Assembly: GCA_903919455.1 (NCBI GenBank)
Contig: CAIXIJ010000018.1
Span: 33,934 to 97,933 of the forward strand
Origin: an uncultured Acidimicrobiaceae bacterium
GTDB taxonomy: Bacteria; Actinomycetota; Acidimicrobiia; Acidimicrobiales; Ilumatobacteraceae
DNA: 64,000 nucleotides
Direction: 5' to 3'
In this document: positions 1,510 through 11,506 of the stretch, one piece after another
Numbering within the stretch: the first letter of the stretch is position 1
How the letters are laid out: each line of letters begins with the position of its first letter
Made by a program: the position numbers and the translations under genes
The notes under the pieces: generated by a model
Seen by the model: only the letters and a program-made list of their open reading frames with translations
What the model was told of the DNA's origin: nothing
Database searches by the model: none

Positions 1510-3420
1510 TCAGGCGTAGAGGGCGGCGCGGAGGTCGAGGCCGAGCGATCTGCCGTCGAGGCAGAGATGCCGTGCGTTGAAACCGGTGGCGTGCACTGCG
1601 ATGGTGACATCGCTCGACGCCACGTCGCTGGGCGTGGCGAAGCCGAACAAGCCGTTCGCATCCGTGCGACCGCGAGCGAGTTCGCGGGGCGTGGTGCCGT
1701 CGCGATGGGCCATCACCGACACCACTGCGCCTTCCACCGGCCGGTGCTCGCCAGCGGCATCGGCATCGTGATCGGTCACCTCCACGCGGGCGGTGCGGGC
1801 ATCGGGCTTGCGCTCCACGGTGATCTCCATGTCGCGGAGCCAGATCATCGGCTCGGCGACCACTGCCTCGAAGCCAGCATCAAGCACGTGGCCGGCAACG
1901 TTGGCGTTCAGCGACACGTCCTGCGGTGCCATACCGTGGTCGGCGCTCACCACGAAGAGCGTGTCGTCGAAACGACCGAGCCGATCCAGTTCGGCGAGCA
2001 CATGGCCGATACGCACATCCGTCTCGGTGAGTGCGTCGGCGAGGCCATCGTCGTGCGGGCCGTACTCGTGGCCAGCGCCATCGGTGAGGGCGAGCTCGTG
2101 ATACACGAACACCGGCGCAGGCAGGTCGTCGCGACGCAGCAGTTCGATGATCTGCGCGAGGCCACGGGTGTCGAGTAGCGACTCGCTCGCCACGGCCGGA
2201 TGCTCCTGCGACCAACGAGGGTTCATCTGTTCGGCGAACTGCAGACTCAGTTCCTTCACCGCAGCGCGATCGCACAGGTTGCGGCCTTCCAGCACGGCGT
2301 GCTGGGCGGAGCGACCGAATGGTGCATGAATGGCCACCGTGAGTCCATCGGGGCGTTCGCGGTGGAACGCCTCGTGCAGGCTCTCCACCTGCTGTGATGC
2401 AAAGCGTTCGGTGCCGATCTGAATGCCCTGCGGCGACACCGTCTCAGCCTGCTCGCGCACGTAGTAGGTGGGGTTCACCACGTCGTGATGCCCACACCAC
2501 GTGCCGGTGACGATGGCGGTGTGACTGGGCCAGGTGATGGAGGGGAAGTTCACCATGGAACCACCGGCCAGCACCGCAGCCCGCTCGCGTAAGCGACGAA
2601 GGTTCGGCAACCCGTCGGGGTCGCGCGTCAGACGATCTTCCAACTCGGTCTGGTGCATACCGTCCATGAGGAACACGTAGAGCCCAGTCGGCTGCGCAGC
2701 ATCCTGCTGAAGGATCTCGTCGAGCACTCGCCCGTCCTGCCGCGCCAGGTACACATCGCTCGATGGATCGCCAGCAGCGTCGAGTCCCTCGATCGTGGGG
2801 AACCCCAGGGCCTTCAGCACCGTTGGTGCGATGTCGACGGCGCGGGCCGCCAGTTCGTGTCGACCGGTGCGCACACCGGGGCCGCTGAACCACAGCGGGG
2901 CTCGCGCCTGGCGCACGTGCAGGGCGCCGTGGGTGCCCGGTTGGCTGCCCGCGCACCAGTCCTTCGGCGACACGGCGAGGTCGGGGGCATTCGGCGAATC
3001 GAACAGTTGGGCAACGCGCTCGTAGCCGAACGGGTAGGTCTGATGTTCTGGCGCGATGAAACGTCGCGTCGGGTCGTCGGCTTCGAAACCCGACGCCGAG
3101 GCTGCCGCTCGCTCGAGGTCCATCGTGTTCAACGCCAACTGATCGTCGGCCGCGAGTGGGTTCTCGCCGATCACCTCGAGCACCACGAAGTGCAGGCGTC
3201 CGGCATCGTCGACCATGCGCTGAAACCGCACCATGCCGCGCGTCGACCACACCTCATACGACCCAGTGGTCGCATCGGCTCCGCGCCAGGTGAGCACCAG
3301 ATCGGCCTGCTCGCCCACCACCGGATCGGTGAGCAGCGCATGAATGGCTCGATCGCCGCTCTCGTCCTGTTGAGGATGAAGTCCCTGTCCCTGCAATCGC
3401 TCGGGCCCATGCACACGCAT
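1510..3420 (-). CDS. Alkaline phosphatase superfamily / type I phosphodiesterase-like protein with C-terminal carboxypeptidase-regulatory-like domain
   Basis: VFLMDGMH, NFPSITWPSHTAIVTG, LTDGAGHEYG, VVSADHGMAP motifs; start placed at MRVHGPERL rather than the upstream ORF start at 3567. Confidence 0.8.
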   Translation of the reverse strand: MRVHGPERLQGQGLHPQQDESGDRAIHALLTDPVVGEQADLVLTWRGADATTGSYEVWSTRGMVRFQRMVDDAGRLHFVVLEVIGENPLAADDQLALNTMDLERAAASASGFEADDPTRRFIAPEHQTYPFGYERVAQLFDSPNAPDLAVSPKDWCAGSQPGTHGALHVRQARAPLWFSGPGVRTGRHELAARAVDIAPTVLKALGFPTIEGLDAAGDPSSDVYLARQDGRVLDEILQQDAAQPTGLYVFLMDGMHQTELEDRLTRDPDGLPNLRRLRERAAVLAGGSMVNFPSITWPSHTAIVTGTWCGHHDVVNPTYYVREQAETVSPQGIQIGTERFASQQVESLHEAFHRERPDGLTVAIHAPFGRSAQHAVLEGRNLCDRAAVKELSLQFAEQMNPRWSQEHPAVASESLLDTRGLAQIIELLRRDDLPAPVFVYHELALTDGAGHEYGPHDDGLADALTETDVRIGHVLAELDRLGRFDDTLFVVSADHGMAPQDVSLNANVAGHVLDAGFEAVVAEPMIWLRDMEITVERKPDARTARVEVTDHDADAAGEHRPVEGAVVSVMAHRDGTTPRELARGRTDANGLFGFATPSDVASSDVTIAVHATGFNARHLCLDGRSLGLDLRAALYA

Positions 3421-3427
3421 CACGGCC

Positions 3428-5095
3428 TCACAGTAGGTGGATGGAGGCGTGCCAGGCAGCAAGGCGCACCGACCCTGCGCCCGGAATCGGCTCCGGAGCG
3501 TGTGCTTCGGCCAACCAGGTGTCGGCGATGGTGACGCCGGCAGGCAGGGAGTAATCGAGCGCATCACCGCACAGGTGCAAGAGCACCAGCACGCTCACGT
3601 CGTCGAGCGTGCGCGTGTAGGCGAACACGGTGGGGTGCTCGGGGTCGAGATCGCGATACGCACCGTGCACCAGTGCCGGATGCGCCCGACGCAACGCGAT
3701 GAGCCGGCGGTGATGGTGGAACACCGAGCCGTCGTCCATCATCTGCGCTGCTGCATTCACCTCGGTGTGGTTCGGGTTCACAGCGAGCCACGGCGTTCCG
3801 GCGGTGAACCCGCCTTCAGCCTCTGCGCTCCATTGCACCGGCGTGCGCGAATGGTCGCGACTGGTGTGCGCCAGATGTTCGAGCAGTTCCGCCGCAGGTA
3901 CCTTGTCCGTCTCCACCAGGCCGCGCCACAGACCCTTCACCTCCACATCGTCGTACTGCTCGATGTCGGTGAAGGGGTAGTTCGTCATGCCGATCTCGTC
4001 ACCCTGGTACACAAACGGCGTGGCGCGCTGAGTGAGGTTCCACGTGGCGAGCGCCTTCGCCGATCGCTCACGCCATGCCGGCGAGTCGTCGCCGAACTGG
4101 CTCACCATCCGAGGGTTGTCGTGGTTGGCAAGGAAGCTGGTGTTCCAGCCGGTGGTACCGGCCACCTCGTCCATGTCGGCCACGATGCGCTTGAACTGCG
4201 GCCACGTGAACGACCGTTGCCGCCAGTGCGGATGACCGAGGCGAACCAGATCGAACTGGAAGATCATCGACAGTTCTTCGCGTGCCGTGTCGGTGAACTT
4301 GGGAATCTCCGACACCTCCACGCCGAACGCTTCGCCGACCGACACCGCGTCGTAGGGGCCAAGCACCTCGGTGTGCATTTCGTGCAGGAACTCATGCACC
4401 CGAGGGCCACCGGCGTACACGTAATGCGGGCGCGCACGCTGCTCGCCTTCCAGGTTCGGCAAGCCCGGCTGTTTGGAGATGAACGGGATTACGTCCATTC
4501 GAAAACCGGCAACACCCTTGTCGAGCCAGAAACGCATCAGGTCGTAGACCTCACGCCGAACGGGTTCGTGCTCCCAATTGAGATCGGGCTGCTGTGGCGC
4601 GAAGTAGTGGAGGTACCACTGGTCGGTGGCGGCGTCGTACTCCCATGCCGAGCCACCGAAGAAGGCCGGGTAGTTGTTCGGTGGGCCGCCATCCACACCA
4701 TCGCGCCAGACGTAGTAGTCGCGATACGGGTTGTCGCGCGACGACCGACTCTGCACGAACCACTCATGCTGATCGCTGCTGTGATTCACCACGAGGTCGA
4801 TGATCAGGCGCATCCCTCGCTCGGTGATGGCGGCCAGCATTCGATCGAAGTCGTCCATCGTGCCGAACTCCGCCATCACCTTGCGGTAATCGCGAATGTC
4901 GTAACCGTTGTCGGCGTTCGGGCTGTCGAAATGCGGACTGAGCCAAATGGTGTCGATGCCGAGCACCTGCAGGTGGTCGAGACGAGACGTGATGCCGTTC
5001 AGATCGCCGATGCCGTCGCCGTTCGAATCCATGAACGAACGCGGATAAATCTGGTAGACGACCGCGTCCTTCCACCAGGGGGTGTGACCCACCAT
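3428..5095 (-). CDS. GH13 alpha-glucosidase / oligo-1,6-glucosidase
   Basis: WWKDAVVYQIYPRSFMDSNGDGIGDLNGI, DLVVNHSSDQHEWF, GFRMDVIPFISK, FLANHDNPRMVSQFGDD: canonical GH13 regions. Confidence 0.95.
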   Translation of the reverse strand: MVGHTPWWKDAVVYQIYPRSFMDSNGDGIGDLNGITSRLDHLQVLGIDTIWLSPHFDSPNADNGYDIRDYRKVMAEFGTMDDFDRMLAAITERGMRLIIDLVVNHSSDQHEWFVQSRSSRDNPYRDYYVWRDGVDGGPPNNYPAFFGGSAWEYDAATDQWYLHYFAPQQPDLNWEHEPVRREVYDLMRFWLDKGVAGFRMDVIPFISKQPGLPNLEGEQRARPHYVYAGGPRVHEFLHEMHTEVLGPYDAVSVGEAFGVEVSEIPKFTDTAREELSMIFQFDLVRLGHPHWRQRSFTWPQFKRIVADMDEVAGTTGWNTSFLANHDNPRMVSQFGDDSPAWRERSAKALATWNLTQRATPFVYQGDEIGMTNYPFTDIEQYDDVEVKGLWRGLVETDKVPAAELLEHLAHTSRDHSRTPVQWSAEAEGGFTAGTPWLAVNPNHTEVNAAAQMMDDGSVFHHHRRLIALRRAHPALVHGAYRDLDPEHPTVFAYTRTLDDVSVLVLLHLCGDALDYSLPAGVTIADTWLAEAHAPEPIPGAGSVRLAAWHASIHLL

Positions 5096-5098
5096 GCT

Positions 5099-6628
5099 CT
5101 ACTCCGAGAGAACAGAGATGCGCAGACGCGTGGGGTTGGGGTTCCGGGCGCCCACCTCACGTTCGCGCAATGCCACCCAGCGTTGCTCCACTCGTTCACG
5201 CTGCTGCTCGAGCGGCACGTCGGCAAGCAGCGTGTGCTGCGCCCGGCTGAGACCAGCCTCACGACGCTTGAGGTCGAGCAAGTCGTGCAGGCTGAGGTGC
5301 AGTTCGCGGTAGATCTCGGTGGGGTACGTGCCGTGGAACATCATTGCCAGGTCGCCGGAGGTTTCCCAGTTCGCCTGATCGTCGAGTTCCAGCTTCACCA
5401 TCTCGTGGAACCGCGTGCCCGGCAACGGGTAACTGACGCTGACCCCGATGTCGTCGGGCATGAGTTCAGAGACCAGCGCGATGGTCTTCTCGATGTCGTC
5501 CCAGGTCTCGCCCGGATAACCGAACTGGATGAAGAAACAGGCACGGATACCGTGCTCGAGAAGTCCGTGCCGAGCAACGCGGATCTGCTCGACCGTGATC
5601 TCCTTGTCCATCGCATCGAGGATCCGCTGGCTGCCGCTTTCGCAGCCGAGCCAGACCTCATGACAGCCCGAACGTGCCAACGCATCGAGCGCTTGGTCGT
5701 TCATCAGGTCGACACGACTCTGCATGGTGAACGGCACTCGCACATTCGCGGCCTCGACACGGTCGGCGAAGGCGGCCAGCCAATCGCTCCGAAGCCCAAA
5801 GATGTCGTCGGCGAACCACAGGTGGTCGGGCTGGTAGTCGTTCGCGATGTGGATCACTTCATCAGCCACCTCGGTGGCCGAGCGCATCGCGTAGCGCTGG
5901 CCCCAGATCGGCTTGGCACACCAGTTGCACGAATACGGGCACCCGCGGGTGGAGACCAGGTTCAGCGAGAACTTGCCATGCGCCGACACCCACGCCTCGC
6001 GGTAGGCCTCCATGTCGATGAGATCGCGAGCCGGGAGACCGAACACGTCGGGATGCCGTTCGATGGCCCGGCGCCCGTTCGATGACACCTCACCATCCAC
6101 CAGCACCGCAATACCGGGAATGTCGGCAAGTGACTGTTGCGGATCGTCACTGAGCCAGCGCGAGACCACCTCGCGCATGGTGTGCTCGCCCTCTCCCAGC
6201 AGGCATGCCTCGGCGCCCGCTTCGAGATACACCTCGGGGTGGTCGGTGACGTCGGCACCGCACACGGCTACACGACAGCCTGCCTCGCGGGCCATACCGA
6301 TCATCGTGAGTGCCGCCTCGCGCATGCGGGTGAGGCACATCTTCGACAGGAAGTTGAAGTTGTCTTCGAACAGCACGACGATCTTTGGACGGTGCTGTTG
6401 CAGGCTGGCGAGGAAATCGGATTCGTCGTTGGCGAGCATCGCATCGAACACGCCCACGCTGAGGCCCTCTTGGCGCAACACCGTGGCGGCATGCAGGGTG
6501 TTCAGCGGCGGGTACGGCTTCATCTTCGCGTGCTGCTTCGGGTCGAGCAGCAGGAAGTACGAGTGGCCGAGTAGCACAGTCGATTCAGTGATGGTGTCGT
6601 CCAACTGCTCAATCCCGTCTGCGCGCAA
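5099..6628 (-). CDS. B12-binding radical SAM protein
   Basis: N-terminal cobalamin-binding-like region and CPYSCNWC (CxxxCxxC) radical SAM motif. Confidence 0.9.
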   Translation of the reverse strand: MRADGIEQLDDTITESTVLLGHSYFLLLDPKQHAKMKPYPPLNTLHAATVLRQEGLSVGVFDAMLANDESDFLASLQQHRPKIVVLFEDNFNFLSKMCLTRMREAALTMIGMAREAGCRVAVCGADVTDHPEVYLEAGAEACLLGEGEHTMREVVSRWLSDDPQQSLADIPGIAVLVDGEVSSNGRRAIERHPDVFGLPARDLIDMEAYREAWVSAHGKFSLNLVSTRGCPYSCNWCAKPIWGQRYAMRSATEVADEVIHIANDYQPDHLWFADDIFGLRSDWLAAFADRVEAANVRVPFTMQSRVDLMNDQALDALARSGCHEVWLGCESGSQRILDAMDKEITVEQIRVARHGLLEHGIRACFFIQFGYPGETWDDIEKTIALVSELMPDDIGVSVSYPLPGTRFHEMVKLELDDQANWETSGDLAMMFHGTYPTEIYRELHLSLHDLLDLKRREAGLSRAQHTLLADVPLEQQRERVEQRWVALREREVGARNPNPTRLRISVLSE

Positions 6629-7676
6629 CAGTGTCGTAGGCCGCCACCAATTGGCCGGCTACATGTTCCCAGGACAGGACGATACGTGATCTTTCGAGGC
6701 TTGGTTCACCTGAGCGCCAACTTGCGTTCTCCAAGGCTTTAGCCGCAGCAGGTGCATCGGCCACGGGGAACTGCGCCCCCACATCGCCCGCGATCGCCCG
6801 ATGAGGCGGGATGGCACTCACCACAGGGACACAACCGCACGCCATGGCTTCGATGAGTGAATAGCCCGACCCTTCCCGATGGCTGGTGGAGAAGTAGATG
6901 TGGGCGCCCCGATACCAGGCGGCCATCCGCTGATGGGGCACGGCAGCGTGAAGATGTACTCGATCGCGCAGGCTGGCAGTCGCCGCAATTCGGGCTCGCA
7001 CTTCCGCCTCCATCGTGCGGTCGGTGGCCAGCATGTGCAACTGCGCATCCGGCAGCGCAGCGAGGGCAAACGCCTCGACAGCGTTGAGAGGGTCCTTGCC
7101 GGCAATCAGGCGTCCCACCCAGAGGACCGCTGGGGCGCCCGCCAGCGGTTCCGGAGCCTGCTCGGGATCCGGCAGCATCGACGCGGCCTCGAGCACCTCG
7201 AACAGCGGGGCGCCCGGTTCGATCACCCCCGCATCGATCCAGGGCTGCACCTGGCCCTCAGCGGCACCCGTGAACAGATAGCCGGCGACGCTACGTCGCA
7301 CCCAGCGATGGCCCACGCGAGCGCGACCGCTGAACACCGGTTCGCCATGGTGTTGCAGCAGCAACGGTGCCTGCACCTTGGCTAATCGGCGAAGCAACCG
7401 AGTCCAGCCAAGGCCATGCACGTGTACGACGTTCGGGCGATCAGCCGACACCGCCGCCGCCAACGCCGCGTCGGATGGGTGGAAGCGATACCTCACTCCA
7501 CCGCGCTCCAACGAACCTTCCGCCTCGCTGGTGCGCCCGTGCACCGTCACCTCGACACCTGCCCGGTGCAATCCCTCGACGGTGGAGGTGACGGTGGGCC
7601 AACCATCCACCACGTCGTCGAACCGGCCAGCAGTGATGGGCGGCATCACCATCGCCACGCGCAACGCGTCACTCAT
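6609..7676 (-). CDS. Glycosyltransferase family 4-like
   Basis: VLWVGRLIAGKDPLNAVEAFA and SHREGSGYSLIEAMACGCVPVVSAI motifs. Confidence 0.9.
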   Translation of the reverse strand: MSDALRVAMVMPPITAGRFDDVVDGWPTVTSTVEGLHRAGVEVTVHGRTSEAEGSLERGGVRYRFHPSDAALAAAVSADRPNVVHVHGLGWTRLLRRLAKVQAPLLLQHHGEPVFSGRARVGHRWVRRSVAGYLFTGAAEGQVQPWIDAGVIEPGAPLFEVLEAASMLPDPEQAPEPLAGAPAVLWVGRLIAGKDPLNAVEAFALAALPDAQLHMLATDRTMEAEVRARIAATASLRDRVHLHAAVPHQRMAAWYRGAHIYFSTSHREGSGYSLIEAMACGCVPVVSAIPPHRAIAGDVGAQFPVADAPAAAKALENASWRSGEPSLERSRIVLSWEHVAGQLVAAYDTVARRRD

Positions 7677-8695
7677 CGGAACCGCCCGACCGCCGAACGA
7701 CCCAGTTGGCGCGCCACGCTCGCCTGCTCGGCGGGTGACTGCGTAAATGCCGAGCGCCAGCGCGAGGTGGTGCGCTGCGTCGGGTCGCGCAGGACGGCAG
7801 CGGTGGGGGTGACCGCCAGCAACTCGGCATGTCGAAGGCGATCGAGCTCGGACCGAAGCAGTTCACTCGGCACCACGTGGGGCAGCACGCGGTCCGCTAG
7901 CCACAGACCAGGCCCGGTGAGCCGCGGGTCAACGGAGCGCATCACCTGCCCGATGGCAGTCCAGTCGAGGCCTCGCTGGTGCAGGAAATACACATCGAGC
8001 AGGTTCACCGCCCGAACCTCGGCGCGCACCACGGTGGAGGCCAGGTGACCCACCACGTGCACGGCGAAGGCCGGTTCAGCGAACCGCCACTGCCCATCGT
8101 CGGTTCGATGCGCCTCGACTTCAATGTCGAATCCTCGGGCCGTGTAGCCGTGGAGAAACTCCAGCCAGCCGGGGTGCACCTCAACACGTCCGTTGTGGTC
8201 GGCTGATTCGCCATCGGTGCGGCCCACGCTGCCGTCACCCCATGCGAGGAACGTATCTTCGTGGTCCTCGGTGGCGTACAACGACCAGCCGGCGCGGGCG
8301 AGAGCCGCGCCGGCCTGAGCCCGATAACGAGCCGGCACCAACACGTCGATGTCGCTCATCGGTCTCGTGCCGGGCGACGGCCACACCGCCTGGCCACCAG
8401 CGCTACCCCCCAGAACAGCTCCCTTCACGGGCACGGCGCACAGGTCGGCGGCAGCGAGGGCACCGAGCACCTTCGGGGTGAGCGCAGCGAATCGATCGGC
8501 TCGGGCCTGCACCTGCCCTTGCTGCTCCTGCGCGTACGCCACCACATCCGAGTCCGCCGTATCGAACAGCCCCAGCGAACCAGCGAGTGCCGTCAATCCG
8601 GTGGCCAACCCCACTTGCTGCACCGTCGCCAGTGGCCATTCGGGCAGCGCCGACTCACGACCCGTCAGGCGGGCGAGCACGGCATCGACCAGCAT
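7673..8695 (-). CDS. NTP_transf_5-type uncharacterised nucleotidyltransferase
   Basis: VPVKGAVLGG...RPMSDIDVLVPARY motif typical of PF14907-like proteins; overlaps downstream GT gene by 4 bp. Confidence 0.75.
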   Translation of the reverse strand: MLVDAVLARLTGRESALPEWPLATVQQVGLATGLTALAGSLGLFDTADSDVVAYAQEQQGQVQARADRFAALTPKVLGALAAADLCAVPVKGAVLGGSAGGQAVWPSPGTRPMSDIDVLVPARYRAQAGAALARAGWSLYATEDHEDTFLAWGDGSVGRTDGESADHNGRVEVHPGWLEFLHGYTARGFDIEVEAHRTDDGQWRFAEPAFAVHVVGHLASTVVRAEVRAVNLLDVYFLHQRGLDWTAIGQVMRSVDPRLTGPGLWLADRVLPHVVPSELLRSELDRLRHAELLAVTPTAAVLRDPTQRTTSRWRSAFTQSPAEQASVARQLGRSAVGRFR

Positions 8696-8780
8696 CAGTT
8701 GCTGGCCACGCCACGGGGTGACCGTAGGAACGACGATCGCAGGACACTAGCCACGGCACTCGATCCGCGAGACTGCGAGG

Positions 8781-9899
8781 ATGCGAATTGCGTACGTGGT
8801 GCCCGGTGGGGTGGACCCTCCCGGCGGCGAGCGGGTCATTCCGTTCGTGCATCACCTCGTGGGAGCAATGGCCGCACGCCACGAAGTGACCGTGATTGCA
8901 GTCGGCCACGACACAGTGCCGGGCGAGTGGACGCTGCACGGAGCGCGTGTCGTGAACGTGCCCGTCGGCCGGCACGGCAAGGCCGACATCGCTCGAGTGT
9001 TGGCCTCCGTGCCTTCCGCGATGGGTCGGGTCGACGTGGTGCATGGACTATGGGCGAACCTGCCGGGCTTGGCCGCAGTCGCCACAGCGATGCGGTATCG
9101 AGTGCCGTCGGTGGTGAGCGTGTGCGGCGGAGAACTCGCGTCGGTGCCGGCGATCGAGTACGGCGGCGGCCTACGAGACGGCACGCGCCGACTCGCTCTC
9201 GGGGCACTGCGCGGCGCCACCGCGGTCACCGTGGCCACCGAGTGGATGCATCGCCATGTGACGGCGTGTGGCGCGCCGGTGCACGAGATCGTGCCGTTGG
9301 GTGCCGACCTCACCAGGTTCTCGCCCGGCGGCGCGGCGCACCGACCGCATCACCTGGTGCATGTGGCAGGCCTCAATCGCGTCAAGGACCAAGATCTCCT
9401 GCTGCGCGCCGTGGCCCTGGCCTCCGCATCCGAACCCCGGCTCACGCTCGACGTGATGGGTGGCGACACCCTCGGTGGCCACCACGCCCGGCTGGCTGAG
9501 GAATTGGGCATCGCCGACCGGGTGACGTTCCGAGGCCACATCGCACATGAGGATCTGGCGGCAGCGATCGATGGCGCGGCGCTGCACGTGCTCACCTCGC
9601 ATCACGATGCAGGGCCGTTGGCCGTGCTCGAGGCCGCAGCGTGCGGGGTGCCCACGGTGGGCACCCGCGTGGGGCACGTCGCCGACTTCGCCTCACTCAC
9701 TCCCCCCGCGGCGTGGGCGGTGGCCGACCGAGAGCCCGCCACGCTCGCAGCAGCCATCCTCGACATGCTGCGCGACGACCGCCGCAACGCCTTCGGGCAG
9801 TCAGCGCTCGCGTGGGCGCGTACCCACGACGCCGACTTCACGGCGACGACGTTTGAACTGCTCTACCGCAGGCTCACAGCGAGGTCGCGCAACGCCTGA
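8781..9899 (+). CDS. Glycosyltransferase (GT4-like)
   Basis: VAGLNRVKDQDLLLRAVALA, VTFRGHIAHEDL, HDAGPLAVLEAAACGVPTVGTRVG. Confidence 0.9.
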   Translation: MRIAYVVPGGVDPPGGERVIPFVHHLVGAMAARHEVTVIAVGHDTVPGEWTLHGARVVNVPVGRHGKADIARVLASVPSAMGRVDVVHGLWANLPGLAAVATAMRYRVPSVVSVCGGELASVPAIEYGGGLRDGTRRLALGALRGATAVTVATEWMHRHVTACGAPVHEIVPLGADLTRFSPGGAAHRPHHLVHVAGLNRVKDQDLLLRAVALASASEPRLTLDVMGGDTLGGHHARLAEELGIADRVTFRGHIAHEDLAAAIDGAALHVLTSHHDAGPLAVLEAAACGVPTVGTRVGHVADFASLTPPAAWAVADREPATLAAAILDMLRDDRRNAFGQSALAWARTHDADFTATTFELLYRRLTARSRNA

Positions 9900-10789
9900 G
9901 CTGCAGCCTGCGGATCGGTGCCGCGGCGCAACACGTAGACGGGCCGGTCCAGCAACTCGGAGACCCATTCCTGGGCGAGGTGGGCACGCTCGGTGGGCAG
10001 TGCCGGCTCCCAGAAACGCTCGAGTGCTTCTTCGGCAGAGACCCGCCGAAGCGACAGCTCAGGTGATGGGTCCAGCAACACCACCGCTGCGGCGTTCATC
10101 GTGATGAGTTGCTGCGACTCGGGCGGCAACACGGGAACCTTGCGACCTTCTGCGGCCGGGTGCGGCACGGTGGCCAGGTCAGCCAGTTCGGGGAACCGCG
10201 AGGCTGCGTCTTCGGTCATCATCATCCGCCACGGATAGCCGGCAAACCGCTCCGCCGGACTCCCGGTGGCGGCGTAGAGCCAGTCGTCGCTACACACCGA
10301 CATGCCGAGGCGCATGCACGAGTAGGTGAGCGTGCTCTTGCCTGCGCCCGACGGCCCACGCAGCACCAAGCCCACACCATCGTGAGCCACGAGCGCGCTA
10401 TGCATTGCATGCAGTTGCCCGCGACGCACATGGAACGCCGTGAATGCGGCCTCCACGAACAACCGCAGTGCATCCTGCTCGGCCAGGATGGACTCAGGCA
10501 GTTGCAGCATGGCGACGGCGAACTCGTAGTGCAGGGTGGCGACCGCCGTGCCACAACGCACCACCAACGTCTCGTCGCCATCGTCAGCAGTCATAACGGG
10601 CCACGCCGGGTCGATGTCGGGGTCGTTGCCCACCACCACGCAGCGCACGTCGAGATCGCCCGTCACACCCATGTCGGCCGGGTAACGCGCCAGTCCGGCC
10701 GCCACTGCGGCGCGCAGTTCCTCCGGTGCGTCGTGCAGACGCACCGCGGCGCCCATGGGTTGATGTTCGACAGATGCGAGTGGCGACAC
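9863..10789 (-). CDS. HPr kinase-like (HprK-related) P-loop protein
   Basis: HSALVAHDGVGLVLRGPSGAGKSTLTYSCMRLGMSVCSDDWLYA: P-loop plus DD motif of HprK-like kinases. Confidence 0.75.
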   Translation of the reverse strand: MSPLASVEHQPMGAAVRLHDAPEELRAAVAAGLARYPADMGVTGDLDVRCVVVGNDPDIDPAWPVMTADDGDETLVVRCGTAVATLHYEFAVAMLQLPESILAEQDALRLFVEAAFTAFHVRRGQLHAMHSALVAHDGVGLVLRGPSGAGKSTLTYSCMRLGMSVCSDDWLYAATGSPAERFAGYPWRMMMTEDAASRFPELADLATVPHPAAEGRKVPVLPPESQQLITMNAAAVVLLDPSPELSLRRVSAEEALERFWEPALPTERAHLAQEWVSELLDRPVYVLRRGTDPQAAAQALRDLAVSLR

Positions 10790-10807
10790 GCCTGGAAGGC
10801 TAGGGCC

Positions 10808-11506
10808 TCAGACGAGCGCTGGAACCTGGGATTCAATCCAGCCCTGGAGGTGCGGAGTGCACTCCACGCTCGTGATCAGGCTGTAACGAGGCGTGGTGCT
10901 GTTGTGCACCACCACATGCCAGAGGCGCTGGGTGTCCACCACGAAGCGGGCGAACCTCGGCAGCGGTACCCGCCGCTCGGTGCTGGGGATGGGCAGATGG
11001 TCCTCGTCGAGATCCATCAGCAGCATGTAGCTGTCGGGGTCGTCGGTGAGTTCGATCCAGCTCCGCACCACCCAGCCGGTGCCGGCCGGGTTGAACCGGT
11101 TGTTGTCGTCGCGGTGGAAGCTCTTCAGCGCCTGCTCATGATCCTGGGGCTCGAGCTTGATGATGCGCACCCGGCCGAAGTTGGCGCCGATGCTGTCGAC
11201 GTACGCCTTCAGGGTGGGGGCCTTCTCTGCGTTGGGCGTCCAGAGAGCGTCCTTGTCGGTCTTGCCCTTGTCCCAGAAACCACGGCAGTCGAGCGTGCCG
11301 TCGGCCGACGCGAGCGGCGCGAAGTTGGTGTCGCCACCGCTCTTCCAGTCCATGTACTCCAGACCCTCCCACTCCTCGGTGGGAATCTCCCCCGGATAGG
11401 GAGTGAGGGCCACGAAGCCGGTCTCCTCGAGGGCGGGGCAGATGTAGTGCTCGGAACGGAGCGGAATGTCGACGCTCCAGTGCTCTTTGGTCGGCCAAAA
11501 GCTCAT
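10808..11506 (-). CDS. Uncharacterised protein, possible HxD...H (2OG-Fe(II)/aspartyl-hydroxylase-like) cupin fold
   Basis: Clean ORF with FHRDDNNR (HxD) and LWHVVVHNSTTPRYSLI (distal H, downstream R); family assignment tentative. Confidence 0.5.
   Translation of the reverse strand: MSFWPTKEHWSVDIPLRSEHYICPALEETGFVALTPYPGEIPTEEWEGLEYMDWKSGGDTNFAPLASADGTLDCRGFWDKGKTDKDALWTPNAEKAPTLKAYVDSIGANFGRVRIIKLEPQDHEQALKSFHRDDNNRFNPAGTGWVVRSWIELTDDPDSYMLLMDLDEDHLPIPSTERRVPLPRFARFVVDTQRLWHVVVHNSTTPRYSLITSVECTPHLQGWIESQVPALV

Follow-up and report, generated by a model that had tools for sequence, protein, structure and literature searches.

A probable circularly permuted hydrolase of the alkaline phosphatase superfamily in Acidimicrobiia

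Results

The window analysed here, the whole stretch of 64,000 nucleotides from an uncultured Acidimicrobiaceae bacterium, carries a gene of the alkaline phosphatase (AP) superfamily at positions 1510 to 3420 of its minus strand. The gene runs from an ATG at 3420 to a stop at 1510 and encodes a protein of 636 aa. The original prediction had taken it as a 685-aa open reading frame, the start of which is a GTG at 3567; that codon lies inside the upstream GH13 amylase gene (3428 to 5095), and the ATG at 3420, which comes seven bases after the stop codon of the amylase, is the likelier start. Homologues also start close to this position. With the 636-aa start, the residue numbers given earlier drop by 49, so that the former H213 becomes H164. 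No signal peptide was evident on inspection of the N-terminus of the 636-aa protein.

From the N- to the C-terminus, the motifs of the protein are G-T-H164-G165, V195DIAPT200, MD253G, PSIT296WPSH, D447GAGH451 and AD494H495GM. As originally noticed, the HG/VDIAPT block stands ahead of the DG, nucleophile Thr, DxxxH and ADHG motifs, and the same order is found in all 88 non-redundant single-domain homologues that make up our conservation alignment. The features described below are all encoded on the minus strand. The HG half (residues 1 to 241; positions 2698 to 3420) consists of a helix (residues 16 to 31), a beta subdomain (residues 38 to 85), the HG ligand, the VDIAPT helix and the joining segment. 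H164, the His of the HG motif and the predicted last metal ligand, is encoded at 2929 to 2931, and VDIAPT (residues 195 to 200) at 2821 to 2838, with D196 conserved in 85 of the 88 homologues. The former C- and N-termini are linked by a segment between the two halves (residues 206 to 242; positions 2695 to 2805), which contains a conserved LxRQDG. The DG half (residues 243 to 530; positions 1831 to 2694) carries the predicted metal ligand D253 of MDG (2662 to 2664), the predicted nucleophile T296 (2533 to 2535), the predicted ligands D447 and H451 of DxxxH (2068 to 2082) and those of ADHG, D494 and H495 (1936 to 1941).

No second HG block follows A493DHGM, in agreement with the original prediction; there is only a short strand region and a tail. 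The tail (residues 531 to 636; positions 1513 to 1830) is modelled as a beta-sandwich with seven strands at high pLDDT. It had been called a carboxypeptidase-regulatory-like domain, and it is indeed beta-rich and similar to CarboxypepD_reg, but its score against PF13620 (18.8 bits) falls below the cut-off of 32.3. The related tail of a much longer protein, L131 (see below), passes at 33.2 bits.

In all, 406 relatives were counted among the genome contigs scanned; judging by record titles, the 80 that we inspected come mostly from metagenome-assembled genomes of Acidimicrobiia and other Actinomycetota. In the best matches from related genomes, a single open frame spans the two halves, which keep this order. 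In the alignment of single-domain homologues, the seven predicted metal-site residues (H164, D253, T296, D447, H451, D494 and H495) are invariant in 88/88, as are G165, Q171, R173, P199 and T200. The conserved residues comprise the three Asp and three His ligands and the nucleophile (Thr, Ser or Cys) expected of the AP superfamily. Because H164 is identical in every homologue alongside the other predicted ligands, this residue of the N-terminal block is as constrained as the other residues of the predicted site, and the co-invariance is strong, though indirect, support for its position at the metal. One permuted homologue (L139; G150:C81) is split over two frames, and some of the end of its HG half seems to be missing; a gene that is broken, or a mistake in the assembly, may be the cause.

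The permuted order was examined by HMM-HMM alignment, as had been proposed, with a canonical family of 27 proteins (527 columns) as the reference for hhalign. The N-terminal half aligned over 137 columns to the canonical C-terminus (columns 378-517 of 527, E 2.5E-14), and the C-terminal, DG half aligned to the canonical N-terminus (columns 35-316, E 9.4E-25). A control in which gap-rich columns were shuffled gave two spurious hhalign scores above 130 and was replaced by shuffles of dense columns; with dense columns only, the N-terminal half scored 106.7 (E 1.5E-14), whereas 100 shuffles scored at most 31.9. In the reciprocal direction, an HMM of the canonical C-terminal half matched the N-terminal region of all 88 members, 77 of them with E<0.01, as compared with E 0.68 for the best shuffled or reversed decoy. 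When the profile of the N-terminal half was searched against 177,635 PDB sequences, the 18 matches obtained (E up to 5) were all AP-superfamily proteins, among them lipoteichoic acid synthases, sulfatases, phosphoglycerate mutases, ENPP4 and PafA, and all lay in the C-terminal part of their chains. One by one these matches are weak (best E 0.0017), and their weight lies in their consistency. Both parts of the protein are thus homologous to a canonical relative, with their order exchanged, and the original reading of a circular permutation is borne out by the two-half alignment, the shuffles, the reciprocal HMM and the PDB search. Neither of the two findings that had been named as grounds for rejecting that reading was obtained.

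The Pfam model gives a partial view of the same arrangement. PF01663, the profile of the type I phosphodiesterases/NPPs, a family characterised by cleavage of phosphodiesters or pyrophosphates, matches the 636-aa protein with 101.1 bits (cut-off 23; E 1.2e-28), but covers only residues 249-553 (profile 3-278 of 342). A full-length match in the canonical order would have HG last, and here HG is N-terminal. Rotating the sequence raised or lowered the score by no more than about two bits, probably because the region from ADHG to HG is divergent.

The full-length AlphaFold2 model, computed for a single chain, has a pLDDT of 85.7 and a pTM of 0.86. On superposition, residues 236-529 take the AP fold, matching PhoK, PafA, NPPs, PhnA and sulfatases with Z of about 14-17 (up to 17.1). 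The alpha/beta core fold is accordingly modelled for these residues, and the other half of the core is assigned solely by sequence profile, since fold aligners follow the chain order and cannot place the N-terminal half. The match to 2gsn ends at residue 290, before the end of that enzyme, and the nucleophile loop (residues 289-296) has a pLDDT mostly below 50 in this model. Folded alone, the N-terminal half retains its helix and beta subdomain and loses strands 176-179 and 186-192 of the full-length model. Such a loss is expected if the strands belong to a shared sheet, although it can be taken as suggestive only, the two models having used different alignments. No AP-superfamily structure matched the isolated half with these order-dependent aligners (no Foldseek hit at E ≤ 0.001; best VIA Z 3.3); as the partner strands are missing from this model, we give the result no weight for or against a permutation.

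Upstream of the gene is a tightly spaced row on the minus strand (3428 to 8695) of NTP_transf_5, glycosyltransferase, B12-binding radical SAM and GH13 amylase genes, with which the permuted gene possibly forms an operon. The gene order upstream is the same in G007, G009 and G002 and is absent around the gene in G005, G006, G031 and G049. A longer minus-strand row (3428 to 11506), which includes an HPr-kinase-like gene, is largely kept in three relatives. At many loci in Acidimicrobiia (L031-L110), the single-domain gene adjoins rplM-rpsI on the opposite strand, near truA, glmM and glmS. Neither the rplM/truA/glmM loci nor the amylase in the window names a substrate. EboF of the ebo cluster was considered as a candidate and dropped, as none of the genes seen around the window was of the ebo type.

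Four proteins of 1181-1389 aa (L131, L132, L133 and L134, from G100, G177, G374 and G109) have the order HG-half, DG-half, HG-half, DG-half, tail. The outer halves of these double proteins belong to the permuted family, and the inner two form a nested canonical domain, which in G100 matches PF01663 over 2-340 of 342. By inspection of their sequences the double proteins look secreted, and two have LPxTG-like ends. In a tree of DG halves, one group (96/83) unites the single-domain permuted members with the last DG half of the double proteins; its sister is a canonical group to which the stand-alone L159 and the double proteins' first DG half belong (joint 95/83). The subfamily of the window is sister to the outer permuted part of the double proteins (99/92), with which it shares the tail. 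That the double proteins arose by a recent tandem duplication was rejected (p-AU 1e-5).

A second, large PF01663 family (L165, L167, L201-L230), apparently secreted or membrane-anchored, also has, ahead of its DG half, a block with a His (SH178, 30/30) and an APT motif. It is found mainly in two actinobacterial families, as multiple copies per genome, and on inspection its cut point differs by one helix from that of the window family. A single permutation shared by both families was not rejected (p-AU 0.167), and therefore one or two permutation events are both possible.

Discussion

We propose, with a probability of about 0.9, that the product of the gene is an AP-superfamily hydrolase in circularly permuted form, the two halves of which close into one domain. 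As judged from profile comparison, the canonical C-terminal half with HG and the VDIAPT helix lies at the N-terminus and is followed by the joining segment and the canonical N-terminal half. The new chain ends lie in the loop that leads from the strand following ADHG to the helix behind it. By the chemistry of the superfamily, the chain would close into one alpha/beta domain in which D447, H451 and H164 bind one metal and D253, D494 and H495 the other. T296 would attack the phosphorus held between the two metals, and the resulting phospho-threonine would be freed by water. N316 in the HHDVVN stretch would hold the phosphate, as in NPPs. The protein probably acts in the cytosol as a phosphodiesterase or phosphatase, its site being like that of NPP, PhnA or PafA.

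One could envision that the N-terminal block is instead the decayed remnant of a second, upstream AP domain, left outside the active site after a tandem was cut at its N-terminus. The multi-domain arrangements of relatives do make truncation of a tandem a likely route of origin. A remnant would be expected to decay, yet H164, G165, Q171, R173, P199 and T200 show no substitution in the 88 homologues; moreover, the DG half would be left without its last ligand, though its own site residues are all invariant. Because of the invariance of the N-terminal block, we consider this explanation very improbable. An inactive AP-fold protein retained for binding only seems just as improbable. Some members of enzyme superfamilies lose activity, so the idea has precedent, but the nucleophile and every predicted ligand are preserved in 88/88.

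Alternatively, the HG half of one chain might complete the DG half of another in a domain-swapped dimer. The sequence is compatible with such a swap, and our model covered a single chain; its pTM of 0.86 and the short joining segment, however, make a swap hardly likely, and a swapped dimer would in any case remain a permutation in chain order. The source assembly is a draft of 150 contigs, which raises the question of an assembly or frameshift artefact or an erroneous fusion of two genes. Dozens of independent assemblies, among them the single-contig genome G062, show this order within a single open frame, which rules out such an explanation for practical purposes.

A permutation within a single closed domain thus remains our preferred reading. 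Its probable origin is a tandem duplication or an insertion, after which the chain was truncated. A bolder proposal, that the superfamily was permuted at least twice in Actinomycetota (in the window family and in the secreted family) and that the nested doubles preserve a step of the route, is tentative, and we hold it to be somewhat less probable than its negation. Our literature search, which covered open papers and left subscription papers mostly outside, found no permuted enzyme of the AP superfamily.

Work on catalytic promiscuity and enzyme evolution uses the AP superfamily as a standard model, and the order of the motifs serves to recognise its members. A permutation that is natural and widely inherited and leaves the predicted site intact would mean that the fold tolerates new ends within the catalytic domain, and would explain why domain models annotate only half of such proteins. 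The natural singles, nested doubles and canonical sisters offer material for studying how permutations arise.

Among known systems, the Xac NPP (2gsn) and ENPP1-7 share with the window protein the DG, Thr nucleophile, HHxxxxN-like, DxxxH and ADHG motifs and the fold of residues 236-529. Unlike these enzymes, in which the HG ligand and VDIAPT helix are C-terminal, the window protein has them at the N-terminus, together with an extra beta subdomain and a tail domain. Phosphonoacetate hydrolase PhnA (3szy), which is also an annotated match on plasmids, and the alkaline phosphatases PafA and PhoK (5too, 3q3q) rank with the best matches to the fold of the DG half, but all three have the canonical order. 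The canonical relatives L158, L160 and L171 (about 500 aa; family f57 and others) have a beta subdomain and an SDHGSL block that align to the permuted N-terminal half; in these proteins the block is C-terminal, after the first SDHG, whereas in the window protein it is N-terminal. The double proteins L131-L134 resemble the window protein in their permuted outer halves and the same kind of tail, and differ from it in the canonical domain nested between those halves and in their secreted appearance.
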